A program made the position numbers and the translations under genes. The notes beneath the pieces were generated by a model. That model ran no database searches. It had not been told where the DNA came from and worked only from the letters and a program-made list of their open reading frames with translations. A stretch of 26,547 nt of DNA. Origin: Clostridia bacterium (GTDB taxonomy: Bacteria; Bacillota_A; Clostridia; Christensenellales; Borkfalkiaceae). Of this stretch, positions 6,340-25,550 are shown in pieces (within the stretch, counting starts at the first letter, position 1; every line of letters begins with the position of its first letter). The stretch spans positions 1 through 26,547 of the forward strand of contig JAFQBR010000192.1 in assembly GCA_017399665.1 (NCBI GenBank), read 5' to 3'.

Positions 6340-6415
6340 GGCTCTGTCACAACAAAGTGTTGATAAAAGAAGTTTTATCTCTTAAAAAAAATCAACCATT
6401 GTTTGTGACATCGCC
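6340..6415. repeat. 76-bp palindromic MITE-like element
   Basis: The left end GGCTCTGTCACAA and the inverted right end (GGCGATGTCACAA on the other strand) match at 11 of 13 positions. Inside are further inverted pairs GTTGAT/ATCAAC and GATAAAA/TTTTATC. A solo left end recurs at 8780. It looks like a non-coding miniature element or an insertion-sequence remnant; no family assigned. Confidence 0.5.
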
Positions 6416-6546
6416 ATTTTTTAAAAAACTTTTATATTTATCTTTTACAAAAACAAAACTTTTAAAGCTTTCGAGTATATTTAATTTGCCCCTTTTTTTA
6501 CTTACGTTAGTCATTTTTCTTTACCAACAGACAACATTTTCTTCGA

Positions 6547-6641
6547 GCAAACTTCTCCCCCATCAAATCCCATTTACGTATCACTTTTCCCATAAAAAAA
6601 GCACCCATACAGGGTGCGTTTTTTATGGCGGAGAAAATGGG
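6547..6641 (-). repeat. 95-bp direct repeat, copy A, with truncated tRNA-Ser 3' end and terminator
   Basis: Matches 6749-6843 at constant offset 202 with three mismatches. It includes a terminator (GCACCC 6601-6606, GGGTGC 6612-6617) and the last 16 nt of tRNA-Ser, CCA included (6626-6641), after which identity to the tRNA stops. CATCAAATCCCATTT (6561-6575) pairs with 6635-6649 at 14 of 15 positions, so copy A is also one large palindrome. Confidence 0.75.
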
Positions 6642-6748
6642 ATTTGGTGTTTTGCACACCGCCCCGATAAACTGCCACACCGGGCAGTTTAGTCCGCTAT
6701 ATGCTCTTCTGTATGTTTTTTACTTTCGCAAGCGGACAGTTTGCTCCC

Positions 6749-6843
6749 GCAAACTTCTCCCCCATCAAATCCCATTTACGTATCACTTTTCACATAAAAA
6801 AAGCACCCATGCAGGGTGCATTTTTTATGGCGGAGAAAATGGG
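6749..6843 (-). repeat. 95-bp direct repeat, copy B, overlapping the intact tRNA-Ser 3' end
   Basis: Partner of 6547-6641. It carries the working terminator of the tRNA and its last 16 nt. Confidence 0.75.
6803..6819 (-). terminator. Terminator of tRNA-Ser
   Basis: GCACCC (6803-6808) and GGGTGC (6814-6819) with a 5-nt loop, followed on the minus strand by a run of seven T. Flanking A/T runs can extend the stem. Confidence 0.85.
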
Positions 6844-6918
6844 GTTCGAACCCATGGTACGCTTATGACGTACACACGATTTCCAATCGTGCGCCTTCGA
6901 CCACTCAGCCATTTCTCC
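6828..6918 (-). tRNA. tRNA-Ser(GGA): tRNA-Ser (anticodon GGA)
   Basis: A 91-nt class II tRNA with encoded CCA (6830-6828). The acceptor pairs GGAGAAA with TTTCTCC, discriminator G. The anticodon loop TTGGAAA gives GGA, which reads UCC/UCU serine codons. The long variable arm (GTACG/CGTAC type) and the TTCGAAC T-loop are typical for tRNA-Ser. It has its own promoter and terminator. The 3' end is duplicated 202 bp away (6626-6641). Confidence 0.96.
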
Positions 6919-6965
6919 AATATGTAAAGAGCAAAAATATCTTTCGCCCTTTTTATAGCTATTAC

Positions 6966-8880: not shown

Positions 8881-10026
8881 TTAATCCCAAAGAGCATAAA
8901 CAGTCATATCACAGCTTATTGTTGTTAAATTTGTTAACTGACCGTGAATTCTTGGGTCTATATTATTACCTTCTCTTGTAGCATACCAGCCTAAGAATGT
9001 ATGTCCGGGCCAAGTGGGAACGGGGATAGCTTTTTCATCTTGATAAAAGCTTGATAAGGGATTAATTAAAATTTCGCCTGACTCAAAGCCTGCGGGGAAG
9101 CTTGCTTCGCCTGAGTTGTTGTCGTTAAGAATAAAGGTTACGGTATATGGCTCGCCCTTTGTAACGTCAAAGTCAAACATGGGTTCCCATTGAGAAGAGT
9201 TTTTCTTATAATAAATTTTATTATTATCCTTATCCCAACAGAAATCGCCTACCCTGCCGTATTCCTCGGTTGGCATACCAGCTGAAGTAATCCACGTACC
9301 GGGGGCTTCAATGCCCTCTTTTCTTTCTGAATAGGTAGTACCGTCGGCAAGTTCGTAAGTAATTATAAGAGCATATTTAGTTCTATCGTTAGGATCAATT
9401 ACGTATTCAATATCGTAAACGCTTCTACCGTTTTCACCTTTAGGTATTAGAACGGGCTCGGGAGCGCCTTCTCTGCCGTCATCATAGCTAAAAACAAGCC
9501 ATTTATTACCATCGCCGTTAAGGTCCTCTACTTTAACCATTAAGGTTGCGCCGTCCTTAGGCATTGGGAAATAAACGTTTTCTGAACGTTCTTCACCGTT
9601 ATCGTCATAAACGACTGAAAAATAATATTGAGGCTTAGCAGGGTCACTTTCATCAATTTGTAGTTCGTCACTAATACGTAGGATTTTTGTCCCTCTATAA
9701 ACGGTATAGCTAGGATCTTCCGTTTGGTCGTTAAAATCGTCTATGGTAAGGACTAAGTTCCCCTTTTCGTCGTAATCAACGATAATATCAACGGCGGGAC
9801 CGGCGTCACCTTTTACACCTTGTGGAATATAAAAAACATCATCCGGTTTAACTTTATCTACGTACATAATTGTTATTTTTTTGCTTCCGTCAGGCTCGTA
9901 TCCTTCTGAAACCACTATGTCTTCAATCATGAGTGTTTCTTCTTCAAAAAAGCTTGAACAAGAGCTGAAAACAAAAGAACATAAAAGTAAACACACTAGC
10001 ATTAAGCAAGTTATTATTTTTTTCAT
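8881..10026 (-). CDS. Surface lipoprotein with C-terminal InlB/Flg_new-type repeat
   Basis: Predicted cell-surface lipoprotein of 381 aa. A Cys-rich signal peptide ends at FSSC with Cys23 as lipidation site. The middle contains short collagen-like or phage-fibre-like connectors (GVKGDAGPA near residue 88, PKDGATL, PKGENGRS) separating beta-rich modules. One of them reads WITSAGMPTEEYGRVGDF, then IYYKKNSSQWEP, a pattern common in extracellular tip or linker modules. The last 90 residues (VTFILNDNNSG to MTVYALWD) match the Listeria-Bacteroides/InlB B-repeat signature with TFLGWY and YALW. GGAG lies 7 nt before ATG 10026. It is 12 nt downstream of the beta-helix gene, the last gene of the operon. 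Role: surface display or adhesion (inference). Confidence 0.8.
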   Translation of the reverse strand: MKKIITCLMLVCLLLCSFVFSSCSSFFEEETLMIEDIVVSEGYEPDGSKKITIMYVDKVKPDDVFYIPQGVKGDAGPAVDIIVDYDEKGNLVLTIDDFNDQTEDPSYTVYRGTKILRISDELQIDESDPAKPQYYFSVVYDDNGEERSENVYFPMPKDGATLMVKVEDLNGDGNKWLVFSYDDGREGAPEPVLIPKGENGRSVYDIEYVIDPNDRTKYALIITYELADGTTYSERKEGIEAPGTWITSAGMPTEEYGRVGDFCWDKDNNKIYYKKNSSQWEPMFDFDVTKGEPYTVTFILNDNNSGEASFPAGFESGEILINPLSSFYQDEKAIPVPTWPGHTFLGWYATREGNNIDPRIHGQLTNLTTISCDMTVYALWD

Positions 10027-10038
10027 AAAAAATCTCCT

Positions 10039-12483
10039 TTATGGGGTTTGAACAATGGCACTGTTTGCCATAGCGTTATTTTCTAATATTTCGTCGTTTG
10101 CGGTTTTGCCATATAAATATCCGTTTTTAACAAAATGGAAGCGGAATGGCTCGTAGCCAATAACGGTGGTAACCATCTTTGTTAATAAACTTTGAATGGT
10201 TGCCATACTGATATCGTCACTGCCTGAAATTCTCAAATAAGTGTCTAACAAATCCATAGGCTCTTCGTGAGAAATATATTTTGCGTTCGGTCCGCTAAAT
10301 TCTACCTTAGAAAGATTTAAACCGCCCCCGTAAAACGCAACGGGAATATTTACGTACTGTGAGAACTCTTCCTTATGGAAATATTGGCTTTTTTCCCTTT
10401 TTATAATATCCTTTACAGGGAAAAATTTATCCATAATACCGTCTAGCATAGTAACTAAGCTTTCGGGAAGTTCTTGACCGGGCAACATATTTTTTACCGT
10501 TTGGGCTATATTTTCATCAATAAGCCCTGTAACGTCCATCTTGTCTATATCTTTATAGTCGAAGAACATAGTGTTTCCCGTTACCTCAACTTCAACAGGA
10601 TAAGAAACACCCGCTATATTTTGAGGTTGGAATGGGAAGCAGACTGCAAGAAGTGGGCCAAGCGTACCTTCAACGTCACTAATCGTACTAGGTGAGCCAG
10701 AGTAAAGGAATGGCCCGTTAAACTGTGATTCTATACCGATAGCGGCAATACCGCTGTTTGCAAACAAGCAATCCTCTATAACGGTAGAGCCAGCGTAATT
10801 ATTTTCAACACCAGCGCGCTGATTTAAGGTATTTTGTATTTCAGCTAACAGTTGACGCATTTGCTCTCTTGTTTCATGCGAGTTGGAGTAACTACCGAAG
10901 ATAAATTCATTCATAATATCATCTCCGGCACCGCCTTTGCGAAGATAGTCGTATATTCTTGACTGTGTTTTTTCACCTGAAAGGGTGTTAAACGTCATCT
11001 CTTTTTCGCCGTTAATAGGAACAAAATCGTTAGAGCCCGTGAAAACAAGGAAGTTTCTTGCCGTATGAACGTAAGAATTTTTTAGTGTAAATTGATTAGC
11101 CGAAAATGCTCTTACAACGTTTTTGCCGTTTTTAATACGTGAATTTTTAACGGTAATATTATCCCCTGCAACCTCTAAAACTGTACCTACGTAATCTAGG
11201 TTTTGAATAACTGCAACGTTATCGCAGTTACTTAAGTTCACGTCGTTTACAGTAATATTGCTTCCTGCAAGGTACATACCTATATTATCTTGACCAAAGG
11301 CTTTAACCATCGTTTGCGTATCGTCTTTATCCTTTGGTGTACCAAGCGCATAGAAAGGTAGCGGACCTCTAAATAAGTCCTCTTGTGCGGGCTTTGCAAT
11401 ATTTGCATCCGAGGGTTCAACGTCCTTAGGGTAAGCTAGGTTATGGAAGTTTAAGGTGTATCCGTTGCCATAAAAGTCTTTGGTAACGCGTAAGCCTACT
11501 TTAATATCCATGCTTAACTGCTCAACACCCTTTTGCGTTTTTGCGTATGCGTTCCATTGGTCTATATAGTTATGATTATACGTTGTTGGGAATGAGTCTA
11601 TTTCATACTTAAATCCCCAAGCGTTATTCTTAGCATCATAATTACCAAAGCAAACCACGTTGTTTTCTTTAGTGGCTTTTACTTCGTTTAAAGACTGAAA
11701 ATGCTTTCTTAAAACTACTATTTCACCGCCGTTTTCGCTTTTGTTCGTGCAGTTTAATAAATCTTGATAAGTATATACGTTAACGCCATTTTCAACAATT
11801 TCAAAAGAATAGCTTCTGCTTGCCGCAGCATCGCTGTGAATTGTTAACGTTGCTAGCTTGGGCGTTGGTTTTAAAATACTGATTTTGCCCGTATTTTGAT
11901 CAAATGAAATATTTTCCGTGCATTCGTAAGTGATAGTAGGCAATATATTTTCCGGCTGAGCTTCAATAACCATATCAAAAGAAGCTGGCATTTTTGCCGT
12001 ACCGCTTAAATCGTATTGACCGTAGTAAATAGTTGGGTCTATATTCGCACCAGAAAGTGAAATCTCTGGGCGAAGCGAAATAAATGCGTTCTCAAACAAA
12101 ATAGCCGTCATTCTTCTTGAAACGTCACCGTTTTTAGTTGAACATCTAACGTACACTTCACCTTCTTTTAAGGGCTTTAAATAATACTCTCCGTTTTGCT
12201 CAACAATTTCTGCTAGCGGTTCGTCTTCGCCGTTTTTATTTACGACGCTCCAAACAAGCTCGTTGCCTTCTGCAAGCTTATAATTGTTTCTGTTAACACC
12301 TTTTGCAGAAAGCTTGTGCCCTATTTCATTTGTAAATTGGAATGGGTGATAGTCCTTGTATTCCCATTCAATACCCGAAATATTTACGTCAACTATATTA
12401 TAAGTAAAATTGACTGTTACAATACAAAGTGTAGATACTATAAAAGGTAATAGAAGAAGTACTATTAAATTTTTCTTTTTCAT
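10039..12483 (-). CDS. Large exported beta-helix protein with N-terminal membrane anchor or signal
   Basis: Extracytoplasmic protein of 814 aa. Residues 1-30 are a basic start plus a hydrophobic segment (LIVLLLLPFIVSTLCIVTV), acting as signal or anchor; no lipobox. Residues about 35-230 look like Ig-like Big domains (KLAEGNELVWSVVNKNGED, GEVYVRCSTKNGDVSRR). Residues about 330-620 have the stacked pattern of a right-handed parallel beta-helix: DNITVKNSRIKNGKNV, NQFTLKNSYVHTARNFLVF, and STVIEDCLFANSGIAAIGI. No catalytic motif recognised. Its ATG shares one base with the TGA of the exporter permease gene (TGATG), so translation is coupled. That tight link suggests this is a cargo or anchoring partner of the exporter (inference). 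Confidence 0.75.
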   Translation of the reverse strand: MKKKNLIVLLLLPFIVSTLCIVTVNFTYNIVDVNISGIEWEYKDYHPFQFTNEIGHKLSAKGVNRNNYKLAEGNELVWSVVNKNGEDEPLAEIVEQNGEYYLKPLKEGEVYVRCSTKNGDVSRRMTAILFENAFISLRPEISLSGANIDPTIYYGQYDLSGTAKMPASFDMVIEAQPENILPTITYECTENISFDQNTGKISILKPTPKLATLTIHSDAAASRSYSFEIVENGVNVYTYQDLLNCTNKSENGGEIVVLRKHFQSLNEVKATKENNVVCFGNYDAKNNAWGFKYEIDSFPTTYNHNYIDQWNAYAKTQKGVEQLSMDIKVGLRVTKDFYGNGYTLNFHNLAYPKDVEPSDANIAKPAQEDLFRGPLPFYALGTPKDKDDTQTMVKAFGQDNIGMYLAGSNITVNDVNLSNCDNVAVIQNLDYVGTVLEVAGDNITVKNSRIKNGKNVVRAFSANQFTLKNSYVHTARNFLVFTGSNDFVPINGEKEMTFNTLSGEKTQSRIYDYLRKGGAGDDIMNEFIFGSYSNSHETREQMRQLLAEIQNTLNQRAGVENNYAGSTVIEDCLFANSGIAAIGIESQFNGPFLYSGSPSTISDVEGTLGPLLAVCFPFQPQNIAGVSYPVEVEVTGNTMFFDYKDIDKMDVTGLIDENIAQTVKNMLPGQELPESLVTMLDGIMDKFFPVKDIIKREKSQYFHKEEFSQYVNIPVAFYGGGLNLSKVEFSGPNAKYISHEEPMDLLDTYLRISGSDDISMATIQSLLTKMVTTVIGYEPFRFHFVKNGYLYGKTANDEILENNAMANSAIVQTP

Positions 12484-14075
12484 CAGTTAATAGCCTCCAA
12501 ATCCATAAATAACGCGCCCATGTTTTGATGTAGGAATACAATGGGGTAAATTCCACAAAGTATAAGCACTAATACACCGGCAAGATAAATAAGAGCCAAA
12601 GAAGTACCAAGGAAAGAAAATACTATACCAACTACGATATAAACGAAAGGAAGAAGATACGCATATAAAGAAGAAAGATATGTTTTTCTTGGTTTACCGT
12701 GGCGAATTGAAAGCTCTTCTTTAAGTGAAATAACGTCAAAAACAAACAGACAAATTGTTGCCATAAGTAGGGCTATAAGCGCGTTAGCTATACTTAATAC
12801 CCCTGTGAAGGCAAGCACCGCAACCGAGATAAAAAGTGATACGAAGGAAAGCATAAAGGGTATTGCTGTTTTTATAATTAATTGCGTTTTGTATTTTACA
12901 GGAATGGTCTTCATGTTCTTAATAGTGCGCTCTTCCATAGTTATATAAGAATTTGCGCCCTGATTTATAATCAAAGTAAACATAATTACAATGAATATAT
13001 CCAAAAGAACTGAAAAGTTAGGAATAAGTGCTAAATAGAATTTAAACAATCCCGCTGAAAAGACGGTATTCATTGCGTTGACTATAAGATATAAAAGCAA
13101 CGGTTGAATTACTAAAAGACCGGAAAATGAGAATATGTAATCAGAGTTTTTAGTAATTAAAATAAGCTCCTTTTTAATAAGCGCACGTACAGGCGTTAAA
13201 GGTTTAAAGTTAAATTCTTTTTCACTGCGCTTTGCCGTTACTGAAAGATTTCTTACGTAATGGAAGGTAAAAACCGTAATGGTTACGCCAAGCACAAATA
13301 CGCCTAATGCAATACAAATATATGGCATAAATGATGCCGTTCTTTTTTTAATAAACACGTCACATAAGAATTTAACAGGAATAGCAAATCTTTCAAATTT
13401 TATAAACTTTGCCATTGACTCTTTACTAAAAAGAGTTACCAGCTGATTGTTTGCAACAAGGTCGATAAATATTGTTAAAATTTGAGAGTAAAGATAAGTC
13501 CCAACAAACAATAATGTTAATGAAAGAATAAATTTAATAAGGATATGCTTTTTAAGATACTGTGATGCAACCCAAACGGGGTAAACAAGTAGTAACGCTA
13601 CGCCCATTTCAAAGAAGAATGATAAAACGGGATAAAATAGTGCTAAGTAATAAAACAGTATAGTTTTTTCAAATACTTGTCCGTATGCAAAAAACATTGG
13701 ATAAATAAACATAAACGTAGTTGCATAGTGAGATAAGAATAAGAAAATCAACTTAGAAAAGATTATCTGCGCGTTAGAAACGGGATAGTTCGTAAGCTGT
13801 TGAATATCTTTTTCGTTAAAGAAAAGCTTTTTAGCTTTTAAAAGACCAGAAACGATAGTCAGTAAAGAAATTATTAAAAGCAACAGGCTGACAAATGCCT
13901 GCGGAGCGTTTTCGTAACTTTTTATTTTTCCAAAGACTGCGCTATACAAAATATATTCAAGCAGAATAAAGCACACCACAAAGATAGCCGAAACGATTGA
14001 CGTAACGACCTTTGCGGCAGTGGTCTTTTCCCTACCGAACATCATTTTAAAATCCTTTATAAGTAGATTTAGCAT
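12483..14075 (-). CDS. ABC-2 type exporter permease (putative ABC_export family)
   Basis: Polytopic membrane protein of 530 aa with about 12 hydrophobic segments, starting with a cytoplasmic MLNLLIKDFKMMFGREK followed by the first segment at about residues 24-50. The LTNYPVSNAQIIFSKL segment near residues 95-110 and the later FKPLTPVRALIKKEL segment near 290 are typical of ABC-2/ABC_export membrane subunits that export lipids, peptides or polymers. The two halves look like a tandem ABC-2 arrangement. It lies 55 bp downstream of the ATPase and overlaps the beta-helix gene by one base. Purine-rich AGGAAAAG precedes ATG 14075. The substrate is not known. Confidence 0.8.
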   Translation of the reverse strand: MLNLLIKDFKMMFGREKTTAAKVVTSIVSAIFVVCFILLEYILYSAVFGKIKSYENAPQAFVSLLLLIISLLTIVSGLLKAKKLFFNEKDIQQLTNYPVSNAQIIFSKLIFLFLSHYATTFMFIYPMFFAYGQVFEKTILFYYLALFYPVLSFFFEMGVALLLVYPVWVASQYLKKHILIKFILSLTLLFVGTYLYSQILTIFIDLVANNQLVTLFSKESMAKFIKFERFAIPVKFLCDVFIKKRTASFMPYICIALGVFVLGVTITVFTFHYVRNLSVTAKRSEKEFNFKPLTPVRALIKKELILITKNSDYIFSFSGLLVIQPLLLYLIVNAMNTVFSAGLFKFYLALIPNFSVLLDIFIVIMFTLIINQGANSYITMEERTIKNMKTIPVKYKTQLIIKTAIPFMLSFVSLFISVAVLAFTGVLSIANALIALLMATICLFVFDVISLKEELSIRHGKPRKTYLSSLYAYLLPFVYIVVGIVFSFLGTSLALIYLAGVLVLILCGIYPIVFLHQNMGALFMDLEAIN

Positions 14076-14130
14076 AACTTTTCCTATATTTTAAATATAA
14101 CCTTAATGAATTTACTTTAATTAAACGCTT

Positions 14131-14904
14131 TTACTTTTGATTGCTACCCTTATAAATTTCCATAAATAACTTAGGCAACTGTATACGTCTATTAGGCTCG
14201 CGGTTAAAGTCGTAAAGCCCGGCAACCTTGCCTTGGTTAATAATTGCAACTCTATCGCAAATTTTAGCAACAAGGTCGATATTGTGCGAAGTAACGAATA
14301 CCGTTTTACCGTGATCTGCATATTCGCGAAGCATCTTTTTAAGCTCCTCTACCGCCATAATATCAAGACCAACGGTGGGTTCGTCCAATATCCAAATTTT
14401 AGGGCTGTGCATTAAGCTTGCAACAAGGCAAAGCTTTTGCTTCATACCGTGTGAATAATCTGAAATGGGATTATTAAGCTCTGCAAGATCAAGTGCAAGT
14501 CTTGTGCAAAGATATCTATAATTTCTAATAAAATCGCCCTCGGTTACGCCGTAAATACTTGCAACGAATTCCAAATACTCATACCCTGTCATTGCTTCAT
14601 AGCAAGAAGGCTCGCTGGCAACGTACCCAAATGAGTATTTAGCCTCAATAGGCTCTTGAACAATATCGAAGCCGTCAAGCAAAATTTGACCTTGCTGAAA
14701 CTTTTTAGAGCCGATAACACAGTCGATAGTAGTTGATTTACCAACACCGTTTTTACCGATAAACCCAAAAAGCTCGCCCTCGTATACTTCAAGGTCAATC
14801 CCCTTTAAAACTGATTTAGTTCCGTATGATTTATGTAAATCACGTATAGAGATAAGGCATTCCTTTTGCTTCTTTTCATTTGGCCTATCAACCATTTCAA
14901 TCAT
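14131..14904 (-). CDS. ABC transporter ATP-binding protein (exporter type)
   Basis: Cytosolic ATPase of 257 aa with all ABC motifs: Walker A GKNGVGKST (residues 50-58), a Q-loop position occupied by the SEP segment near residue 98, a degenerate signature SHGMKQK (151-157) in place of LSGGQ, Walker B with ILDEPTVGLD (172-181) and the switch His207 in TSHN. The SHGMKQK signature and single-domain size are typical of ABC-2 exporter ATPases. AAGGAGG (14920-14914) lies 9 nt before ATG 14904 and sits inside the end of the upstream gene, 3 nt apart, implying co-expression with the zinc-ribbon protein. It should pair with the permease encoded next. The N-terminal 15 residues are a charged extension. 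Confidence 0.93.
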   Translation of the reverse strand: MIEMVDRPNEKKQKECLISIRDLHKSYGTKSVLKGIDLEVYEGELFGFIGKNGVGKSTTIDCVIGSKKFQQGQILLDGFDIVQEPIEAKYSFGYVASEPSCYEAMTGYEYLEFVASIYGVTEGDFIRNYRYLCTRLALDLAELNNPISDYSHGMKQKLCLVASLMHSPKIWILDEPTVGLDIMAVEELKKMLREYADHGKTVFVTSHNIDLVAKICDRVAIINQGKVAGLYDFNREPNRRIQLPKLFMEIYKGSNQK

Positions 14905-14907
14905 AAA

Positions 14908-16323
14908 TCACACCCTCCTTATTTTTCTTAACCAAATCTTTTCGCCTTGCTCGTCAACGAAAAGATATTGTGTATCACAAAGCGAACAATGTCCGTTATT
15001 TTCGTCTACGTCTACCGTTTTTTGTTTACAAACCGGGCAATATTTAGAATAAACTTCTTTATCGCCTGTAATTAAAGTAATTTTAGAAAGTAGCCATTGC
15101 TTAATCATTTCTTTTTCGTTATAGTTGCCTGAAAGTAATCGCTTATCGTTATTTTCCCAAGCAAAGCTATTCCAAATAGAAAAGATATCTGTAGTTAAAA
15201 AGTCTTCCTCGCACGAAAGCTTGAAATCATCTTCGCCCCCGTCAAATGCAAGTAGATGAGAAACCTTACCAACTCCGTTATAATCCACGTTAAGCCAAAT
15301 TGCCTTTTCACTTTGCAAATAACCGCATTCCAAATTAAAGCCGTTACCGCAGAATAAGAAGGTTGCACCGTTGAAAAATGGCGCTATAGCGCGATTAACA
15401 GCAATTTCACCGCCATTTTCGCCTTCCAAAGTGCCGGCAGAAATATCTTGGTGACTGCGCTTCATAAGCTGTCTTACAACGCCTAGCGGAACACGGAAAG
15501 TTCCCTCTTTAACAGAAGAAATTTCAAAGCCAAGCTCGCCTAGTGCCTTAAGTATTATAACTGAAGCATATTTTGCAAGGTCTTCCTTTAAAGAATACTC
15601 ATCGTCGTAGCGAACAAACTTGCGATAGAATTTAAAGCATTTATTATAAAGCCTATCTTTAGTTAGAATGTTCGTAGGCTTAATAATTGGGCTAATACCC
15701 TTGCCCTGCGAAACTATTTTATAAAAAGCAGTATTTTTAATAAAGGTTATTCTGCGCATTAAGCTTGAAGAAAGCTTGATTGCCTCTGCCGTATCTTTTG
15801 GAGAAACAACGTTATGAATGGGGTTAATTTCGACGTTAAGCCCCGCGCTTACTTTTGGTAGCTTGTGAAGGTAAAAGGCGTTGCTTTTGGCAATTTCCAC
15901 ACCCAAAAGGTCAACAAGTAAAACGATAAACTGGTTTTCGTAAATACGCAGTTCGTCTACGTGCTGATAATAATAAACGTTTTCGGGAATCATTTTACCT
16001 TTGTGCTCTTTCCACAAACTGCTATCTTGCAGAACTTTTCTGAAAGCGTCTTGTTGAATTTGTCTTGCCTGCTCTATACGGATTACTATGTCTTCGCGCT
16101 TATTTGAAAGATGGGGATGAGCGATTATTGATGAAATAATAGCAAGTAATTTAGAAACTTCCTTTAAAAACTCCATATCCTTTTCAAATGCGATATGCTG
16201 TAAAGAAAAGTCGGGAACTTGCTCTATTTTATCGTAAAAATCGCGCGCATCTGAAAAACCTTCGCAAATAACGTCAACGCTTTCTATATAATCTCTGAGC
16301 GTGGCCTTTTCGGCAATTTTCAT
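14908..16323 (-). CDS. McrBC-partner-like (DUF2357-like) protein with C-terminal zinc ribbon
   Basis: Soluble protein of 471 aa with no signal or membrane segment. I do not recognise it firmly. The stretch VDELRIYENQFIVLLVDLL (residues 122-140) and LYNKCFKFYRKFVRY (225-239) resemble the core of DUF2357-type proteins, which accompany McrB-like AAA+ ATPases. The C-terminus has a four-cysteine zinc ribbon: C429-x2-C432-x13-C446-x2-C449. I see no D-(x)n-E-x-K nuclease motif of the kind expected in McrC. Its start overlaps the end of the AAA+ gene with only one base between TAA and ATG (TAATATG) and has no good ribosome site, so translation is probably coupled. This suggests a fixed-ratio partner or regulator of the ATPase. 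The DUF2357 link is tentative. Confidence 0.5.
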   Translation of the reverse strand: MKIAEKATLRDYIESVDVICEGFSDARDFYDKIEQVPDFSLQHIAFEKDMEFLKEVSKLLAIISSIIAHPHLSNKREDIVIRIEQARQIQQDAFRKVLQDSSLWKEHKGKMIPENVYYYQHVDELRIYENQFIVLLVDLLGVEIAKSNAFYLHKLPKVSAGLNVEINPIHNVVSPKDTAEAIKLSSSLMRRITFIKNTAFYKIVSQGKGISPIIKPTNILTKDRLYNKCFKFYRKFVRYDDEYSLKEDLAKYASVIILKALGELGFEISSVKEGTFRVPLGVVRQLMKRSHQDISAGTLEGENGGEIAVNRAIAPFFNGATFLFCGNGFNLECGYLQSEKAIWLNVDYNGVGKVSHLLAFDGGEDDFKLSCEEDFLTTDIFSIWNSFAWENNDKRLLSGNYNEKEMIKQWLLSKITLITGDKEVYSKYCPVCKQKTVDVDENNGHCSLCDTQYLFVDEQGEKIWLRKIRRV

Positions 16324-16324
16324 A

Positions 16325-18136
16325 TTACAATGTTCTTAAAATATTATTAATAACTTTTTCTGTTCTAGGTAGAACGTTAGAGCCGTAAGTTCTTTCAAGT
16401 AAGTTAAGAAGCTCTTTTAAAGCACCCTTAACGTATTCTTCAAATCTACCCTCTATTTTGCTAATAAGTTTTCTTGAAAGCATAAAGTCGATAGCCGTTT
16501 CTTTACTACCGCCGGTTGCAACGAATACGGGAACGATATTATCTATTTGTGTTAAAATACGGTTACCGATTGCAATACCGAACTGATCGTAAACGTATTC
16601 AGTAACGACATTTAGCTTATTATAATCCTCTTTTGTAAGGCGATATTCAGGCGTATTAAGCGCGATATCGTATAAAGAAGCAAGCTTGCTATGGCCTAAA
16701 GTTATTGGATCGCTATCCCCTTGAACAACGAAAGCGTCGTTCTTATAGTCGAAGTCGGTGGTAATAGCACGGTCGTAAACCTTATCTGTAATAGTAAAGG
16801 TAGAGTCGTCCTTATTGGCAGTACCTACAAAATAAGAGTTCGTGGGAATTCTAATAATACCGTTTTCAAGCTTTACAGGTGGGATGAAATCGTAAGGAAT
16901 TTGAAGAATTTTTAATTGCCATTCCTCTTCGGGATATTCCAAAACTGAAAGCAAGTCTGCAAAGTAATATTCAACACGTGAAATATTCATTTCGTCAAGA
17001 ACGAAAATATGTATTGTGTCGGGATTATAGTTAGCGCGGTAAAGCTCTACTAAGAAATCCGTTTCTGAATAGGTTTGGGTAAATTCGTTAAAGAAGCCCA
17101 AGATATTACTCTTATCTCTCCAAGTAGCTTGAACGGGCATAAATAATACTCTACCGTTTACAAACTTAGCAAAATATCTGGGAAGTGAAGATTTACCTGT
17201 ACCGGATAGACCTTCTAAGATTTCGAAGTGTGAAGCAGCAAAACCGCTTATGAAAAATCTAATAGTGTCAATATCAAAGTAAAGTTTTTCGTATTCAGCA
17301 AGATAATTTCTAAATCTATTAGCAAGCTGGTCTAACGTAATGTCTGCGCTGTCAAGGCTAAGTGCATCCATGCCTTCAAACTCGTTATCAACACGTGAAA
17401 GAGCGGGGAAAACCTTTTCTCTATCTTCAAGCTCGCGCTTATCTGAAACGTAAGATTCACCAGCCCCGCCAACGCCTGCGCCAGCGCCTGCACCACCGCC
17501 AAGACCGGGCGCAAAGCCCTCCATAGTGCCTTCTTTGTTTTCATCAAAAGCAGCCGTTACGTCGTTAGTGATAAATTCTTCGTCATCAAAAACGGGTTCT
17601 GAATTTTGGTCGAAGAACTTAAAGGGTTTATCAATAAATATAAAGTTAATAACGAACATTAAAACTGCGCCGATTATTAAGAATAAAAGAGCGTAAATGC
17701 AAAGTGATAACACAAAAGTCTGTGTTAAATACTGAATTAGGTTACCAATATTTTCTGCATTTATGGGTTTTTGAATAATAATGCCAATACCAAAAGATAA
17801 AACTGCGCAAGCCATAGCTGTTAAAAGGTACGACCCGATCATTTTTAAGCTGTAAGGCTTTTTATTATTAACGATAGCATAACGTCTTTCGTAAATGAAA
17901 GCAACTGCAAACACTATAATATAAATAGTAATCAAAATTAGCGAAACCATACTAGAAACACTACCCTTGATTTCTCTAAATCCTAAATTGGTAGCAATTT
18001 TAGCAATGGGGTTTTTGCTACTTACGATTTTTGCAGAAGTATCTAAGCAAATACCTGTAAATAAGAAGATAAATGCGTAGAAAATAGAAAGCGCAATAGC
18101 AATAAGATTTTTTCTTGTGAATAGAACTTTAAACAT
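16325..18136 (-). CDS. Membrane-anchored McrB-like AAA+ ATPase
   Basis: Fusion protein of 603 aa. The N-terminal 170 residues carry four hydrophobic segments (about 10-30, 60-82, 100-121, 133-168). A linker follows: an acidic part (residues 180-205), then a Gly/Ala run (211-226), then charged residues. The AAA+ domain spans about 285-600, with Walker A GLSGTGKS (309-316), Walker B IFVLDEMN (377-384), the McrB-type continuation NISRVEYYFADLLSVLE (384-400), sensor 1 GTANKDD (438-444) and an arginine-finger candidate in YDRA (454-457). McrB normally drives a McrC nuclease in the cytosol. Here it is tethered to the membrane and sits among export genes, so a role in remodelling or powering surface assembly is inferred. 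GGAGAT precedes ATG 18136. Confidence 0.82.
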   Translation of the reverse strand: MFKVLFTRKNLIAIALSIFYAFIFLFTGICLDTSAKIVSSKNPIAKIATNLGFREIKGSVSSMVSLILITIYIIVFAVAFIYERRYAIVNNKKPYSLKMIGSYLLTAMACAVLSFGIGIIIQKPINAENIGNLIQYLTQTFVLSLCIYALLFLIIGAVLMFVINFIFIDKPFKFFDQNSEPVFDDEEFITNDVTAAFDENKEGTMEGFAPGLGGGAGAGAGVGGAGESYVSDKRELEDREKVFPALSRVDNEFEGMDALSLDSADITLDQLANRFRNYLAEYEKLYFDIDTIRFFISGFAASHFEILEGLSGTGKSSLPRYFAKFVNGRVLFMPVQATWRDKSNILGFFNEFTQTYSETDFLVELYRANYNPDTIHIFVLDEMNISRVEYYFADLLSVLEYPEEEWQLKILQIPYDFIPPVKLENGIIRIPTNSYFVGTANKDDSTFTITDKVYDRAITTDFDYKNDAFVVQGDSDPITLGHSKLASLYDIALNTPEYRLTKEDYNKLNVVTEYVYDQFGIAIGNRILTQIDNIVPVFVATGGSKETAIDFMLSRKLISKIEGRFEEYVKGALKELLNLLERTYGSNVLPRTEKVINNILRTL

Positions 18137-18221
18137 AATTAATCTCCGTAAAATACTGTTTGTATTTTTTAGTTTTTGCTAGAAATAGTAATTTGTAATT
18201 AGTTAAAATATTTTATATATG

Positions 18222-19232
18222 TCAATTTTCTTCCGATTCCTCTTTTTCAGAAGGAATTTCTATGTTTTCAGAAGAAACATTACCGGAAGAATCACTTTTT
18301 TCCTTAATTAAAACGTCTTCTGACTGTTCTTTGAGCTGTGGATTATCAATTTCTTTTTTACCAACAAAACCTTCGTCGTTAAAGGTGTACTCAAAGCCTT
18401 TAAAGTAAATTCTTTGCACCGTTTCGCTTGCAAGCCCTTCACTTTTCTTTTCGTTTTTAAAATTAATGGCGGATGCCAAAATTTCAATACGCTTATCCTG
18501 CGCGTCGTGCATTTTATCTGTAAAGCGGTCAATCATTATTAAACAGTAAATAACCGCAAGTATAGTCAGCATGCCTGCATAGGACTGGAAGAACATTACG
18601 AACGCGCCAACGTAGGGCACTCTTTTGCCCGTATACCGACCAAGAACGTCACTTTTTTTGGGGTGGAACTTATCGTCGCCGTTGTTAGAGTCCCCGCGCG
18701 TAATATATCCGTCTGCGGTAAACCCAACAATTCTGTGGATAATATTTTCCCCTTTATCGTCTACAAAAGCAATGACGTCGTAGCGTTCTAATATCTTGTT
18801 GGAAACGTCTTCTAAAACGATAACGTCGTAAGTATTAAATTGGTTTGTTAGATTATTGGTAATAAGGTAGTCGTTTGCTTTGTTTTTTTCACTCATTGAC
18901 CCCGATGCTACAACGATAATGCCCTTTCCGCCTACCATTGCAATTCCGGAATTAAATTTAGAAACGATTGCTAAAGCCAGCGCAGGAATGGTTATAGCCA
19001 TAAAGAGATAAAAGAAAACCTGTCTGATTATTCTTAAAATTTTCTTTTGCCTTTTAACGTGCGCCTGATTTTCAAAAATAGCCTCGTCAATCAAGTCAAG
19101 GTCCCTGTATCCGCCTTGATACTCACTTATTGCAGACAGCGCATAAGACCTATAAAGTATTGTGAAAATGACAGAGAAACTAAGCACCCCTACTCCAGTT
19201 ACTACCAACGCAATAATATCAAACGTGTGCAT
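18222..19232 (-). CDS. sipW: SipW-like signal peptidase I (S26B) with extended C-terminal tail
   Basis: Membrane peptidase of 336 aa. It has hydrophobic segments at about residues 5-27, 70-92 and 206-236. Catalytic Ser112 is in the VASGSM motif. His166 in the IIHRIVG motif replaces the Lys of bacterial P-type enzymes, marking the archaeal/ER-type S26B class that includes B. subtilis SipW. The third block has GDSNNGDD with Asp181 and Asp186. There is an unusual N-terminal pair of helices and a charged C-terminal tail of about 95 residues, Ser/Glu/Lys-rich at the end. It probably cleaves the three SipW-type precursors encoded upstream. GGAGAT lies before ATG 19232. It is 85 bp upstream of the AAA+ gene and in the same direction. 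Confidence 0.9.
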   Translation of the reverse strand: MHTFDIIALVVTGVGVLSFSVIFTILYRSYALSAISEYQGGYRDLDLIDEAIFENQAHVKRQKKILRIIRQVFFYLFMAITIPALALAIVSKFNSGIAMVGGKGIIVVASGSMSEKNKANDYLITNNLTNQFNTYDVIVLEDVSNKILERYDVIAFVDDKGENIIHRIVGFTADGYITRGDSNNGDDKFHPKKSDVLGRYTGKRVPYVGAFVMFFQSYAGMLTILAVIYCLIMIDRFTDKMHDAQDKRIEILASAINFKNEKKSEGLASETVQRIYFKGFEYTFNDEGFVGKKEIDNPQLKEQSEDVLIKEKSDSSGNVSSENIEIPSEKEESEEN

Positions 19233-19315
19233 ACAATCTCCGAAAGTGTGTGTTTTTAAATAAAAACGTGTAGTTAATACCCTGCGGTATTATAATTTCG
19301 TTTACCCTTTTTGCA

Positions 19316-19345
19316 TTAAAGGGCCGTTTGGGCGTTCGCCCTTAA
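19316..19345 (-). terminator. Hairpin after the SipW-type protein gene at 19355
   Basis: TTAAGGGC and GCCCTTTAA (minus strand) form a stem with one bulge. An alternative GGGC-GAAC-GCCC tetraloop hairpin lies inside. No clear T-run, so it may only slow or partly end transcription before the peptidase gene. Confidence 0.45.
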
Positions 19346-19354
19346 GAATTTAAC

Positions 19355-20200
19355 CTATTTAACCATAGCAGAAACAACAAATCCTAAGTTCGGATCGCTA
19401 TTAGAGTTAACCCTAGCGGTTACAAGCTCTTTAAAGCCGTTCAGTTGCTCGTAAATCTCTTCCGACTTCATAGCGTAAATGCCATCTAACGTACTAACAA
19501 ACGCATTTGTAAGCGCGTCTGCAGTTAAGGGATTACCGTTTGCATCTACCCCGTCGTAATAATAACTTGGGTTAACAAATGCAAATTTTTCGCCCCATAA
19601 AATGGTCATTGTATAGCTAAAGTGCGCAACGTAAGTCTGATAACCGTGTTCCATAATCGGGTTACCATGTTCATCCTTTTGTTCAACTAGAATATAGCCG
19701 TTATTAACCTTGCTAAGGTCAGTAATAGGCGGATTTATTCCGTCGTTTAGGTTGCGTAATTCAATTTGGTCGTTTGTAAGATTGGGCAATCTAATATAGC
19801 CATTTTGTTCTGCCTGTTTTAAGTTAGAATTTGTGTAGTCCAGCGTTACCAAAAGCGTACCAAGGTGTTGAGCGTTCGTCACAGTACCAGATATAGTGAT
19901 GGTAAGACTTTCACGGTCTCCTCCATCTTCTGCGCGAACTCTTCCCGTATAATCTGCAGGCTCGAACTTAAGCGACTGATCCTTTAGTCTGCCGTCCTCT
20001 ACCCCATTTACGGTAATAGTCATAATCGAGGTGGAAACCGTTGCTACTGAAACACCTATTTCGGACTTAGCTTTGGCATTAGAGGAAATAATCCACGCGC
20101 TAAAACCGGATGCAATTAATGCAACCGTTATCAGCAGTGCCGAAACCACTCCTATTAATTTTCGTTTCAACGATTTTCTCGTTATTCTATTATTAAGCAC
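19355..20200 (-). CDS. SipW-dependent exported protein, paralogue 3
   Basis: Secreted protein of 281 aa. It begins at GTG (20200-20198) with AGGAG 7 nt upstream. The N-terminus is a SipW-cognate signal: basic ITRKSLKRKL, a hydrophobic core, then GFSAWIISSNAKAKSEIGVSV, with the cleavage likely after the AKA region. The mature chain is rich in Thr/Val/Asn beta-strands (SLTITISGTV, LLVTLDYTN), like TasA-type fibre subunits. It shares the motif WGxxFxxxNPxxY (WGEKFAFVNPSYYYDG) with the two other family members in this cluster. It lies upstream of and next to the peptidase gene. A fibre or surface-layer subunit role is inferred; sequence identity to TasA itself was not seen. Confidence 0.82.
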   Translation of the reverse strand: MLNNRITRKSLKRKLIGVVSALLITVALIASGFSAWIISSNAKAKSEIGVSVATVSTSIMTITVNGVEDGRLKDQSLKFEPADYTGRVRAEDGGDRESLTITISGTVTNAQHLGTLLVTLDYTNSNLKQAEQNGYIRLPNLTNDQIELRNLNDGINPPITDLSKVNNGYILVEQKDEHGNPIMEHGYQTYVAHFSYTMTILWGEKFAFVNPSYYYDGVDANGNPLTADALTNAFVSTLDGIYAMKSEEIYEQLNGFKELVTARVNSNSDPNLGFVVSAMVK

Positions 20201-20231
20201 CGATATACTCCTGTGTGTGCATGATTTAAAC

Positions 20232-20268
20232 CTGCGCGCATCTTCCTATAGCTTTTTTAATCGCGCAG
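20232..20268 (-). other. Leader hairpin ahead of the 20200 start
   Basis: CTGCGCG (20232-20238) pairs with CGCGCAG (20262-20268) across a 23-nt loop, about 30 nt before the start codon. Confidence 0.4.
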
Positions 20269-20372
20269 AAACAAACATATAACAGTTTGCTGTGGAAAAC
20301 CTTTCCACTAATTAATAACTACGTGTACGCGCGAATGCGTACCTTGCCCAGATTTGGGCATACCTTTACCTT

Positions 20373-20510
20373 ATTTTAGGCATAGTTCAGCCTTTTTAGC
20401 GCTTTTTTGCTATTTTAGGCATAGTTCAGCCTTTTTAGCGCTTTTTTGCTATTTTAGGCATAGCTCAGCCTTTTTAGCGCTTTTTTGCTATTTTAGGCAT
20501 AACTCAGCCT
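20373..20510. repeat. 39-bp tandem repeat, three full copies plus a partial one
   Basis: Units at 20373-20411, 20412-20450 and 20451-20489, then a partial unit at 20490-20510. Each starts ATTTTAGGCATAGTTCAGCC; the three full units differ only by T/C in that stretch. Each unit can fold AGGC with GCCT followed by five T. There are no spacers, so this is not a CRISPR array. Confidence 0.92.
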
Positions 20511-20821
20511 TATTTAGGCATAATTTGGGCTTTTTTAATATACCTTTCCCATTTAAGCGTACCTCTAGCTTTTTAAAATACCTTTTTAAGTTAGGCATAG
20601 TTAAAGCTTTTTACATACGTTGGGCTTTTTTAGGCAGGGTTTTGTCTTTAAAGCACTATTTGCTGATTTAGCATTATAATAATAGCTTTTTCGCACACCA
20701 CGCCATTTTTAGGTATTTTTTTGCCTTTTATTGGCAATTTTACCCACTATTAGCTTATTTATAATAAATTTGGTTGTGATTGTGTTTTTAAAGGCAATTT
20801 TTTAACGCGTAAAAGTTCTGT

Positions 20822-20835
20822 TAATCGACTTATAG
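20822..20835 (-). repeat. Dispersed 14-bp motif, copy 3
   Basis: CTATAAGTCGATTA on the minus strand, in the large intergenic region. Confidence 0.75.
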
Positions 20836-21149
20836 GGCGTTTTTATCCCTTTTTAGTAAACAAACAGAAAATTGGCAAACCTATACCAAACCCATTGGTA
20901 CATTTACCCTTTAAAATTACGTGAAAAATCAACTATTTAATTATTGCCAAAAACTCTTTTTTTCGATTCTTTTCCGTACGTGCTTTTTATAAGTTTTAGC
21001 GCTGTTTTTTATTAATGCACACAAAAACTTTAAACTTTTTTCTTTTACCTCTGCTTTAACCCTTAAACAGCAAATAAAGCTTAAAAAACAAAAAGTTGCT
21101 TTATTCGTTGGTAATTTAAAAAAAGTCCAAAAACACAAAATCCCTTTAC

Positions 21150-21174
21150 CCGATAGGGCGCATTGCCCTATCGG
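21150..21174 (-). terminator. Strong hairpin after paralogue 2
   Basis: CCGATAGGGC (21150-21159) and GCCCTATCGG (21165-21174), a perfect 10-bp stem with a 5-nt loop, and outer CCTTT/AAAGG that can extend it. The T-tract on the minus strand is broken, so termination may be partial. It separates the two-gene 22751-21213 unit from the rest of the cluster. Confidence 0.7.
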
Positions 21175-21212
21175 AAAAGGTATATACAGATCGAAAAATA
21201 TTTAATTTGCTA

Positions 21213-21959
21213 TTATGCAACCTCTGCTAATACGGTTACTTTAATAGTCTTTCCGCCTACTTTTTCATTGAAAGCCGTAAGCACGCTTTCTATGGTATTT
21301 AAAATATCAGCGTCTTCAGTAGTGCTAAAATCAACGTCTTCGTCAAAATAATAACCTGGGTTTTTATTTCCAAATGCAGAACCCCATTTTAATTTTAAAT
21401 CGATGTCAAAATCAGCATTTGATCCTGAAGCATGATAATAATCTGAACCGTCGCCAATATCAATGGTGTAGATATATGTATGAGCAACACCTTCAGCAAT
21501 TGTTTCAACGGCATGTTCCATATCTAGTTCGATATAATTAGCTTCAATAGCTGCTGCAAAAGCAGATAAATCAACCGTTAACGTAAGTTTGCCAAGGTTT
21601 TCTATATTTTTAACTACACCCTTTATTTTAACTGATAAATTTTCAGTATCAGTAGAACCGGTTTCAGCCTTTAAATAACCTTCAGTATCTGCACCATCAG
21701 GACCAAAAGTTAATTTATCCTTATGAGCGCCACCTTCTGTTGATGCAAATAAAGTTTCGTCCATTTCTATTGTTAAATTACCTCTTTCAATGGTTGCAAC
21801 GTCAACGCCAACCGTGCCTTCTGCTTTAGCATTAGTTGAAATAACCCATGCTGCAAAACCGGTTGCCATCATAGCAACAGACATAAATATTGCAACGCCG
21901 AATACTATGATTTTACGCTTGAAAGAATTTCTTGTTAATCTATTTTTTGCCATTTTCAT
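21213..21959 (-). CDS. SipW-dependent exported protein, paralogue 2
   Basis: Secreted protein of 248 aa. The signal region (LTRNSFKRKIIVFG, hydrophobic core, GFAAWVISTNAKAEGTVGVDV) is closely similar to that of the 19355-20200 product. The mature part is acidic and beta-rich (NLTIEMDETL, LTLTVDLSAF). The shared motif reads LKWGSAFGNKNPGYYFDED near residues 188-206. It is followed by a helical stretch (ILNTIESVLTAFNEK) and a terminal strand. AAGGAG lies 7 nt before ATG 21959, the first Met; the second Met, two codons on, has poorer spacing. It follows paralogue 1 by 48 bp, so the two are co-transcribed. It is a likely co-subunit of a fibre or layer. Confidence 0.83.
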   Translation of the reverse strand: MKMAKNRLTRNSFKRKIIVFGVAIFMSVAMMATGFAAWVISTNAKAEGTVGVDVATIERGNLTIEMDETLFASTEGGAHKDKLTFGPDGADTEGYLKAETGSTDTENLSVKIKGVVKNIENLGKLTLTVDLSAFAAAIEANYIELDMEHAVETIAEGVAHTYIYTIDIGDGSDYYHASGSNADFDIDLKLKWGSAFGNKNPGYYFDEDVDFSTTEDADILNTIESVLTAFNEKVGGKTIKVTVLAEVA

Positions 21960-22007
21960 AATATTTCTCCTTTAAATGTTTTTAAGATAATTGTTCGCAA
22001 GCACCTA

Positions 22008-22751
22008 TTATTCAGCGAATTCAGTTGCAACGCCGCTAATAGTTACTTTATAGTTTAGCTTGCTGTTAGCTGCTGAATAAATAGCACCTAATGCTGTTTC
22101 TGCTTTTGTTGCTAGATCGTCAGTTTTTGCTTGTTCGTTAAAATATGTATAGGGGTTTTCATTACCAAATTCAGAGCCCCAAGCAAATTTAATACCAACG
22201 TAGAAAGTACCGCTTGCACCAAGAGTCATTTCAGAAGCGCTGATTTCTGGATCGGTAACCTTGTAAGCTACTGCGCTTGTACCAGGTAAAAGATTAGCTA
22301 GTGCTGCGTCAGAATACAAACCAACGGTTACAGTGATGTAGTGATTGGTAATAAGATTTGCTAATACGGTTGAATCAGCCGTCGTATTTAAGAAGGCTTC
22401 AAGGTTAACAGTAATTTCACCCTTTGTAACGTGTTGGGTTGTGTAATCAACCTTAATTGCTGAAGTTAAAACTTCTTCTTCAATGTTATTAGCAACTAAC
22501 CAATTGTGGTTGGGGCTAGGTGTACCAGCTTTACCAAAGTTAATTACAGTAGCAGGATTTGTAGCTGTTAAAGTGAAGTTAGCATCGCCAACTGCTGATG
22601 CAGTAATTGAACCGGTAGCAACTTGGTCAGTAGGTTGGTTAACGATTAACCATGATGCGAAACCTACGCTCGCGATTGCTATGCAAGAAAGCATAGCGGC
22701 AATTTTCATACTTAAAGCAAATTTTCTTTTTCTTGATTTTACAGTTTTCAT
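22008..22751 (-). CDS. SipW-dependent exported protein, paralogue 1
   Basis: Secreted protein of 247 aa, first gene of the cluster. The signal is VKSRKRKFALSMK, a hydrophobic core, then VGFASWLIVNQPTDQVATGSI, which fits the SipW-cognate pattern of Gly-aromatic plus Gly-Ser/Thr-Ile after the core. The mature chain is Ala/Thr/Val-rich and weakly charged, as in self-assembling subunits. The common motif is FAWGSEFGNENPYTYFNE near residues 188-205, followed by a helix and a terminal strand (YKVTISGVATEF). AGGAG lies 7 nt before ATG 22751. A long structured leader and a TATAAT-type promoter at 23097-23125 precede it. High expression would fit a major structural subunit (inference). Confidence 0.83.
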   Translation of the reverse strand: MKTVKSRKRKFALSMKIAAMLSCIAIASVGFASWLIVNQPTDQVATGSITASAVGDANFTLTATNPATVINFGKAGTPSPNHNWLVANNIEEEVLTSAIKVDYTTQHVTKGEITVNLEAFLNTTADSTVLANLITNHYITVTVGLYSDAALANLLPGTSAVAYKVTDPEISASEMTLGASGTFYVGIKFAWGSEFGNENPYTYFNEQAKTDDLATKAETALGAIYSAANSKLNYKVTISGVATEFAE

Positions 22752-25423: not shown

Positions 25424-25460
25424 TGTGAGGCTGCGAAAAAACAGTAAAAATTGCATAATA

Positions 25461-25530
25461 GATTTGGTATATGCTTGCAATATGGGCAGGCGTTTCTACC
25501 AACCACCGCAATATGGTTGACTACCGGGTT
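25461..25530 (+). ncRNA. Purine riboswitch aptamer, guanine type
   Basis: P2 is GCTTGC (25473-25478) with GCAGGC (25486-25491), loop containing ATATGG. J2/3 reads GTTTCTACC (25492-25500), the invariant core. P3 is AACCA/TGGTT with loop CCGCAATA; the GG of L2 and CC of L3 allow the loop-loop contact. J3/1 is GACTA, with C at the position that pairs with the ligand, so guanine or hypoxanthine rather than adenine is expected. P1 pairs GATTTGG with CCGGGTT through several U-G pairs and is weak. L3 is slightly longer than in xpt-type aptamers. Confidence 0.88.
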
Positions 25531-25550
25531 TTATTAAATCCCATAGTCAA
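25517..25550 (+). terminator. Riboswitch-controlled terminator overlapping the aptamer
   Basis: TTGACTA (25517-25523) pairs with TAGTCAA (25544-25550), with inner GGG/CCC, followed by TTTTTATTTT. The 5' arm is also P3 and J3/1 of the aptamer, so the two folds exclude each other. Confidence 0.85.

Follow-up and report, generated by a model that had tools for sequence, protein, structure and literature searches.

We analyzed a gene cluster in the Clostridia bacterium assembly GCA_017399665.1 (GTDB family Borkfalkiaceae) that combines a SipW-type signal peptidase and its candidate substrates with a McrB-like ATPase and an ABC exporter. The cluster spans positions 8881–22751 of contig JAFQBR010000192.1, the whole of which (26,547 nt) is referred to below as the window. 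A preliminary description of the locus, made from the sequence alone, listed ten same-strand genes, and all ten open reading frames (ORFs) were found on the minus strand. In order of transcription, they encode three secreted proteins with SipW-type signals, namely, subunit 1 (247 aa, 22008–22751, GFASW), subunit 2 (248 aa, 21213–21959, GFAAW) and subunit 3 (281 aa, 19355–20200, GFSAW, GTG start); a SipW-type (S26B) signal peptidase (336 aa, 18222–19232); a membrane-anchored McrB-like AAA+ NTPase (603 aa, 16325–18136); a DUF2357 (McrC N-domain type) partner with a C-terminal zinc ribbon (471 aa, 14908–16323); an ABC transporter ATPase (257 aa, 14131–14904); an ABC-2-type permease (530 aa, 12483–14075); a membrane-anchored immunoglobulin (Ig)-like/right-handed beta-helix protein (814 aa, 10039–12483); and a lipoprotein with a conserved Cys23 and a C-terminal InlB-type repeat (381 aa, 8881–10026). 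The subunits were assigned from their ORFs and signal motifs, with the addition of a structure model for subunit 2 and, for subunit 1, the presence of its family upstream of SipW in relatives. Family scans and alignments identified the peptidase, the partner, the ABC ATPase and the lipoprotein; a defense-family scan, alignment and hydropathy the McrB-like protein; a weak family match and conserved order the permease; and a structure model with Foldseek searches the 814-aa protein.

From the McrB-like ATPase down to the lipoprotein, the genes are separated by 1, 3, 55, -1 and 12 nt, in agreement with the gaps first described, and the SipW-to-ATPase gap is 85 nt. Subunits 2 and 3 are separated by 1 kb (20201–21212) holding a 39-bp tandem repeat of 3.7 copies, which a repeat scan placed at 20372–20517 without a strand. 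Scanning the window yielded 45 promoter-like sites against 43.7 expected by chance and 12 terminator-like sites against 12.3, so that a single transcript is not shown from the window itself.

Conservation was assessed in loci retrieved with a profile of 25 ATPases from contigs representing one genome per species; the best 80 of 292 were kept, so the counts apply to the near lineage. One metagenome-assembled genome (MAG) contributed two of the 80 loci (L031 and L074). ORFs were called by a custom script, and the family profiles were trained on the very same loci. Neighbors were counted on the same strand, at most two genes upstream for SipW and the subunits and at most seven genes downstream for the others, with contigs that were too short dropped separately for each test. 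A sequence search with the ATPase scored at least 7846 relatives among 8000 candidates, the best 120 listed being 57–95% identical over 98–100% of the length. In the testable loci, a subunit gene precedes SipW in 66 of 66 cases, and SipW in turn precedes the ATPase in 69 of 70; downstream of the ATPase are the DUF2357 partner (76/76), the ABC ATPase (71/76), the permease (68/70), the Ig/beta-helix protein (61/63) and the lipoprotein (57/58). The recurring order is subunits, SipW, ATPase, DUF2357 protein, ABC ATPase, permease, beta-helix protein and lipoprotein, and the exact order of the six genes from the ATPase down is kept in 52 of 58 loci. Exceptions are L055 and L059, where no separate ABC ATPase was called, L066, L070 and L079, which also miss, and L068 and L072, with an altered order in which the ABC trio is displaced downstream by a few genes.

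Median intergenic gaps across the relatives are -4, 4, -1, -1, -1 and 1 nt, and translation of the operon genes is therefore probably coupled; the SipW and ATPase genes overlap in 35 of 69 loci. The proposed grouping of SipW, exporter and McrB-like genes is thus borne out by its kept order: it is a real, conserved system and not a chance neighborhood. The outcome that the preliminary description had named as telling against it, an AAA+/partner pair found mostly elsewhere without SipW or exporter genes, does not occur in the window lineage, given the near-constant presence of SipW. The number of subunit genes upstream of SipW varies from one to seven per locus, with arrays of six or seven in L040, L041, L043, L044 and L073. 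An additional gene for an 838–988-aa protein sits between SipW and the ATPase in L034, L036, L045 and L050, and in L055, L059 and L153 a longer permease (620–701 aa) comes without a separately called ABC ATPase, which may be a fusion or a frameshift.

The signal peptidase matches TIGR02228 at 60.8 bits, above the cut-off of 51.85, and scores 61 bits against the Bacillus SipW equivalog NF046067, under the cut-off of 190. Its S112, H166 and D181, which we take to be the catalytic residues, are kept at the 90% level in 75 sequences. The leaders of the subunits are hydrophobic and end in a small-hydrophobic-[A/S]-x-aromatic pattern; relative to the inferred cut site, all 56 aligned subunits carry A or S at P1 and an aromatic residue at P2' (51 W, 5 F). 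A looser form of the motif occurs in 147 of 151 subunits compared with 62 of 330 unassigned ORFs. The initial identification of three SipW-type secreted proteins next to a SipW-like peptidase is supported by these leader motifs and the TIGR02228 match. The subunits themselves belong convincingly to no known family: at most four of the 56 match any one NCBIfam model (ExtJ, best 3e-4), the other NCBIfam and Pfam matches are weak and confined to one or two members each, and no TasA/camelysin model is among the families listed for them (20 NCBIfam rows and 25 of 26 Pfam rows). The model of subunit 2 is a beta-sandwich with an unpaired N-terminal stretch, residues 41–54, the only residues with a predicted local distance difference test score (pLDDT) under 50; this stretch fits a would-be donor strand. 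Foldseek returned no match below 1e-3 for this model, and the best PDB match of the subunits, to a designed repeat protein at 1e-4, included no segment that passed individually, all others having E above 0.2.

The McrB-like ATPase scores 18.3 bits with AAA_5, under the cut-off of 22, and matches the PADLOC candidate PDC-M26A over residues 267–407 (2e-36). Hydropathy reveals five hydrophobic segments within residues 11–170, followed by a Gly-rich linker; a 12-bp tandem repeat (17467–17500) lies inside the linker, the length of which differs between relatives. Walker A and Walker B (DExN) are each kept in all 75 window-type ATPases, and an NxD motif followed by D or E is present in 71 of 75, as GTANKDDS in 52 of them and as NxDD in the window; among the four exceptions, one reads NRDG and three (L068, L072 and L079) were not assigned either way. 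N441, D443 and D444 are invariant in 25 aligned relatives. A PDB sequence search with the ATPase profile gave no match at E<=0.01. The hydropathy segments, the intact Walker motifs and the PDC-M26A match agree with the earlier assignment of a membrane-anchored, McrB-like protein.

We surveyed the wider ATPase family in loci with 1.5 kb on both sides, where the 81 window-type rows include repeated genomes (among L141–L155) and the cousin loci were chosen from the top of the match list or by type, not randomly. All 141 rows have at least one hydrophobic segment ahead of the ATPase domain: by hydropathy, 3–6 in the window type (4–6 in 80 of 81 rows), 4–6 in near forms, 1–2 in all 46 cousins (~420–570 aa), and 12–13 in a 900-aa class. 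The Gly/Pro content of the linker is 0.14 in the window type against 0.09 in the cousins. The DUF2357 gene adjoins the ATPase throughout (window type 81/81, near forms 8/8, cousins 46/46, 900-aa class 6/6), whereas SipW is near the ATPase in 80 of 81, 4 of 8, 22 of 46 and 0 of 6 rows, respectively, the cousin share rising to 22 of 27 once tandem rows are removed by hand. In a tree of 89 rows, with 22 window-type loci hand-picked for spread, the window falls in a 27-row group (98/90) nested in a 31-row group (99/97), and the 52 cousin rows stand beside the window-containing group, weakly held together (85/75). SipW presence changes 7 times on this tree versus 28.6 in shuffles; the SipW link is therefore clustered and is probably an old one that was lost or gained in places.

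Rows without SipW comprise a basal branch (L096, L157, L159 and L160, with only 0.7 kb upstream in L157), L070, L094 and L110, tandem ATPase pairs, and a branch with giant neighbors. The tandem ATPase-DUF2357-ATPase loci (L121–L128, L092 and L100) have membrane segments and lie mostly near proteins of ~680–1680 aa; in 4 of these 10 (L121, L122, L125 and L128), both ATPase domains are identical or almost so. In L108, L116, L119 and L120, ATPase-DUF2357 pairs adjoin proteins of 2030–2596 aa, and in the 900-aa class (L129–L134) the 12–13 hydrophobic segments are fused to the McrB-like domain and accompanied by DUF2357.

The preliminary description read the zinc-ribbon neighbor of the ATPase as a possible McrBC partner, and it is indeed of the DUF2357/McrC type and adjoins the ATPase in every testable relative. 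The window protein reaches 21.4 bits with the DUF2357 model, against a cut-off of 23.3, and 17 of 24 family members match at E<=0.01. The C-terminal zinc-ribbon pattern characterizes this lineage, occurring in 77 of 77 window-type partners compared with 8 of 51 others. In an alignment of the 77 partners, no [DE]xK motif is conserved at the 70% level, nor is any D/E beyond residue 200 at the 90% level; a dead nuclease fold may be compatible with these motif data. A scan of 24 partners gave weak matches to PDC-S64 and to Cas10, each in a single partner. A PDB search with the partner profile returned seven matches, all with E above 0.05, and six of the seven are small chains of the ribosomal zinc-ribbon or aS34 kind.

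Of the ABC-2 pair and InlB-repeat lipoprotein originally proposed, the ABC ATPase clearly matches PF00005 (ABC_tran), whereas the permease matches ABC2_membrane_4 (PF12730) weakly (17.9 bits, cut-off 27) and the InlB-type repeat of the lipoprotein likewise stays under its cut-off (19.7 bits against 27). The 814-aa protein is modeled with pLDDT 84 and a predicted template modeling score of 0.87 as an N-terminal membrane helix, two Ig-like domains (residues ~32–231) and a right-handed beta-helix (~232–793). Foldseek with the whole model gave mostly Ig-/cadherin-like proteins among the 50 matches listed, and a second look showed alignment with right-handed beta-helix proteins; for the Ig-like domains, the Ig-like folds matched include the S-layer proteins Sap and SbsC. 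A PDB sequence search with this protein produced 27 antibody-type matches with E of 0.07–1. Together, the structure model and the beta-helix matches support the predicted beta-helix exoprotein.

Across genomes, the distribution of the system is patchy, not universal. Among 296 Bacilli genomes, 98 match the ATPase at E<=1e-60. With thresholds chosen after viewing the lists, 21 genomes carry the window-type ATPase (E<=1e-120) and 22 carry the full beta-helix protein (E<=1e-140); both are present in 21 genomes, the ATPase alone in none, the beta-helix protein alone in one, and neither in 274 (Fisher 3e-31, a value inflated by kinship among species). A beta-helix match unaccompanied by the window-type ATPase is seen in seven Bacilli genomes; it is strong in G552 and weaker in the other six (E 1e-86 or worse). 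In a sample of 291 Clostridia genomes centered on G001, 15 match the ATPase at E<=1e-60, the window type occurring in G001 alone, and G233 carries a near form without SipW. Within the order of G001, the ATPase is found at E<=1e-270 in 2 of 101 genomes, with two more at ~1e-134 to 1e-138, and within its family at E<=1e-260 in 5 of 61, with four more at ~1e-137 to 1e-141. Host MAGs bear, among others, the names Clostridia, Oscillospiraceae, Christensenellaceae, Bacilli, Erysipelotrichaceae, Acholeplasmatales, Anaeroplasma, Onthovivens and Mycoplasmatota, although such names can err. At E<=1e-20, the ATPase matches 15 of 72,556 plasmid records, none covering over 80% of the protein, and 1 of 50,697 phage records, with 53% covered.

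We examined the loci of six of the seven Bacilli genomes that have a beta-helix match without the window-type ATPase (L161–L166). The ABC trio, consisting of the ABC ATPase, the permease and the beta-helix protein, is complete in five of them (L161, L162, L164, L165 and L166) and truncated by the contig edge in L163; in none of the six was a match to the ATPase, DUF2357 or SipW called. Conversely, when 30 loci were taken from the wider ATPase family, each with 6 kb of flanking sequence in either direction, DUF2357 was present in all 30 and SipW in 17, whereas the permease, the beta-helix protein, the lipoprotein and the subunit family are found in none. Therefore, SipW, the ATPase and the DUF2357 protein are one module and the ABC trio a second, and the window lineage joins both, so that the view of the ten genes as a single unit is not supported in that form. 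Some of the free-standing trios adjoin other surface-type proteins.

The surroundings of the cluster include an AbiO/Nhi-like nuclease-helicase gene (23397–24848, minus strand, 2e-108) that adjoins it; considered as a part of the system, this gene was rejected, being present in the window alone among 81 loci. A purine riboswitch (25445–25543, plus strand, 58 bits) immediately precedes an ORF at 25592 for a 201-aa membrane-type protein, which looks unusual as a riboswitch target. On the other side, a tRNA-Ser (GGA) gene (6828–6918, minus strand) is located inside the stretch 6357–6927, where two overlapping ORFs both contain the repeated stretch KLLPHQIPFTYHFSHKKSTH; this repeat beside the tRNA gene suggests a local duplication.

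Several known systems share components with the cluster. With McrBC type IV restriction, it has in common a McrB-type AAA+ NTPase with an adjoining DUF2357 partner, but it differs in the membrane anchor, the surface-protein setting and the PD-(D/E)xK nuclease signature, which was not found here. MoxR/RavA-type AAA+ chaperones are helpers of envelope complexes encoded in operons with their clients, a likeness tempered by the partner being DUF2357 here and not a VWA protein. The fold of residues ~232–793 of the 814-aa protein, when the fold alone is compared, resembles AlgE4-type proteins, from which the N-terminal membrane helix and the two Ig-like domains set it apart. The SipW-TasA (CalY/CapP) fibers of Bacillus likewise combine an S26B peptidase with small secreted subunits bearing an aromatic residue at P2', whereas here the subunits show no TasA-family match, number one to seven upstream, and are joined by an NTPase pair and an exporter. 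In the available abstracts, assembly of TasA-type fibers is described as chaperone-aided, and a motor is not named (PMC10151520, PMC13082335).

FtsB, the reference point for one published membrane anchor of McrB-like proteins, has one membrane helix. In Bell et al. (2024, eLife, PMC11090510), McrB-like GTPases with a membrane domain that are tied to signal peptidases are designated CoCoPALM, characterized by an NxD motif, by fusion of the GTPase to an FtsB-like membrane and coiled-coil part and by a coiled coil fused to the McrC homolog, and nuclease-less McrBC relatives are left for later work. Set against that account, the window lineage shares the NxD-type McrB-like GTPase with a membrane part (motif in 71 of 75), the McrC-type partner and the neighboring signal peptidase (69 of 70), but lacks the FtsB-like anchor, having, as judged by hydropathy, mostly 4–6 hydrophobic segments and a Gly-rich linker. 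It differs further in the zinc-ribbon partner and in the fixed ABC-2, beta-helix and lipoprotein genes that are missing from the 30 cousin loci. By these sequence features, the cousins fit the CoCoPALM description, and because NxD and the signal peptidase are common to both, the anchor differs and the partner has a zinc ribbon, the window lineage is best placed as a sister lineage of CoCoPALM, not a member. The preliminary statement that a combination with a McrB-like AAA+ protein was not known is thus partly wrong: the link of McrB-like, McrC and signal peptidase proteins is described briefly in PMC11090510, and the joined operon was not found described. Judged by titles and the opening lines of abstracts, our searches, with most subscription papers and bioRxiv outside their scope, found no account bearing on the cluster other than PMC11090510 and its preprint. 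As far as these searches show, this lineage is new, with its anchor of 4–6 segments, its partner bearing a zinc ribbon, its fixed operon and cut sites resembling those of TasA, and so is its presence in genomes in which no peptidoglycan transpeptidase was found (8 of 20).

The hosts constrain the kind of structure that could be built. The PF00905 transpeptidase domain is found in 12 of 20 host genomes, and eight (G009–G015 and G017) are without it; a control set of named genomes was positive in 10 of 14. Mur_ligase_M is missing from four of these eight, and the other four have one match each that passes the cut-off with a low score (E 2e-8 to 5e-6), perhaps, we assume, to folate enzymes. Drafts may be incomplete, but both scans give the same picture for all eight. 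A wall-anchored pilus is therefore unlikely as the general product, and the hosts seemingly without peptidoglycan genes fit anchoring to the membrane and not to a wall.

We accordingly lean, with slightly better than even confidence, toward a membrane-anchored surface-assembly system in which SipW-cut subunits form a membrane-held fiber or layer and a McrBC-type motor powers release or assembly. The subunits would be exported by Sec, held in the membrane through their leaders, and cut by SipW directly before the aromatic residue, as in TasA, where it is at P2'. Cut subunits could then polymerize through strand donation, the N-terminal strand of one, freed by the cut, being taken up by the beta-sandwich of the next. 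On the cytoplasmic face, a McrB/McrC-type ring would draw on GTP or ATP for pulling on the leaders or the subunits. Where assembly takes place, this pulling might in turn drive release, ordering or turnover. A base or cap could be formed by the beta-helix protein together with the lipoprotein, and the ABC-2 trio, as the joined second module, may move a substrate or transmit force. Our confidence decreases from SipW cutting through the membrane-held polymer and NTP-driven action of the ATPase-DUF2357 pair to the role of the ABC trio. The envelope machine proposed at the outset, which exports, cuts and organizes a fiber or layer, thus remains the best reading, with the motor action still conjectural. 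The more specific idea that a McrBC-type ring was recruited from restriction to the envelope as a powered fiber base, and would thus be a new class of NTP-driven surface assembly, with a membrane McrB-like hexamer and a DUF2357 stalk pulling SipW-cut leaders or feeding strand-donating subunits outward in hosts with or without a peptidoglycan wall, we put forward tentatively and consider somewhat doubtful.

Among the alternatives, the same parts might build a paracrystalline layer or sheath instead of a fiber, as the Sap and SbsC matches of the Ig-like domains and the apparent lack of peptidoglycan genes in several hosts would suggest; we regard this as unlikely given that the subunits are small, variable and present in one to seven copies, unlike a single abundant S-layer protein, and that the N-terminal stretch of the subunit fits strand donation. 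It is rather unlikely that the product is a glycan matrix, in which ABC-2 would export either a lipid-linked glycan or a polysaccharide for the beta-helix protein to modify and for the SipW proteins, as matrix proteins, to bind, with the motor organizing the export site: family scans reported no glycosyltransferase family for the ten genes, and the modeled beta-helix has matches that appear typical of the fold and uninformative on function.

A role in defense or envelope surveillance, with the McrBC-like pair as a CoCoNuT-type sensor/effector against invaders, draws on the PDC-M26A match of the ATPase, its NxD motif of the CoCoNuT/CoCoPALM branch and the AbiO/Nhi-like gene next to the cluster, but we hold it to be quite improbable. 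That gene is confined to the window, the 77 partners show no conserved [DE]xK, the PDC-S64 and Cas10 matches are single and weak, and the ATPase is rare on plasmid and phage records; the fixed gene order is also unlike that of defense islands. As for adjacent but unrelated operons, the window would leave room for them, with 85 nt and 122 nt separating SipW from its neighbors and a repeat-bearing stretch of 1 kb between subunits 2 and 3, and yet the gene order kept in relatives, with gene overlaps, contradicts a chance neighborhood and makes this explanation hardly credible.

If the preferred reading of a powered surface-assembly system is true, the conserved McrBC-family pair found next to SipW subunits would open a powered route to fiber assembly, and McrBC relatives without a nuclease would gain a function. 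The window lineage carries this potential in a compact, fixed gene set that extends to hosts seemingly without peptidoglycan, where wall-anchored pili cannot work. These findings suggest that the gene set encodes an unstudied powered machine building surface structures in gut bacteria.
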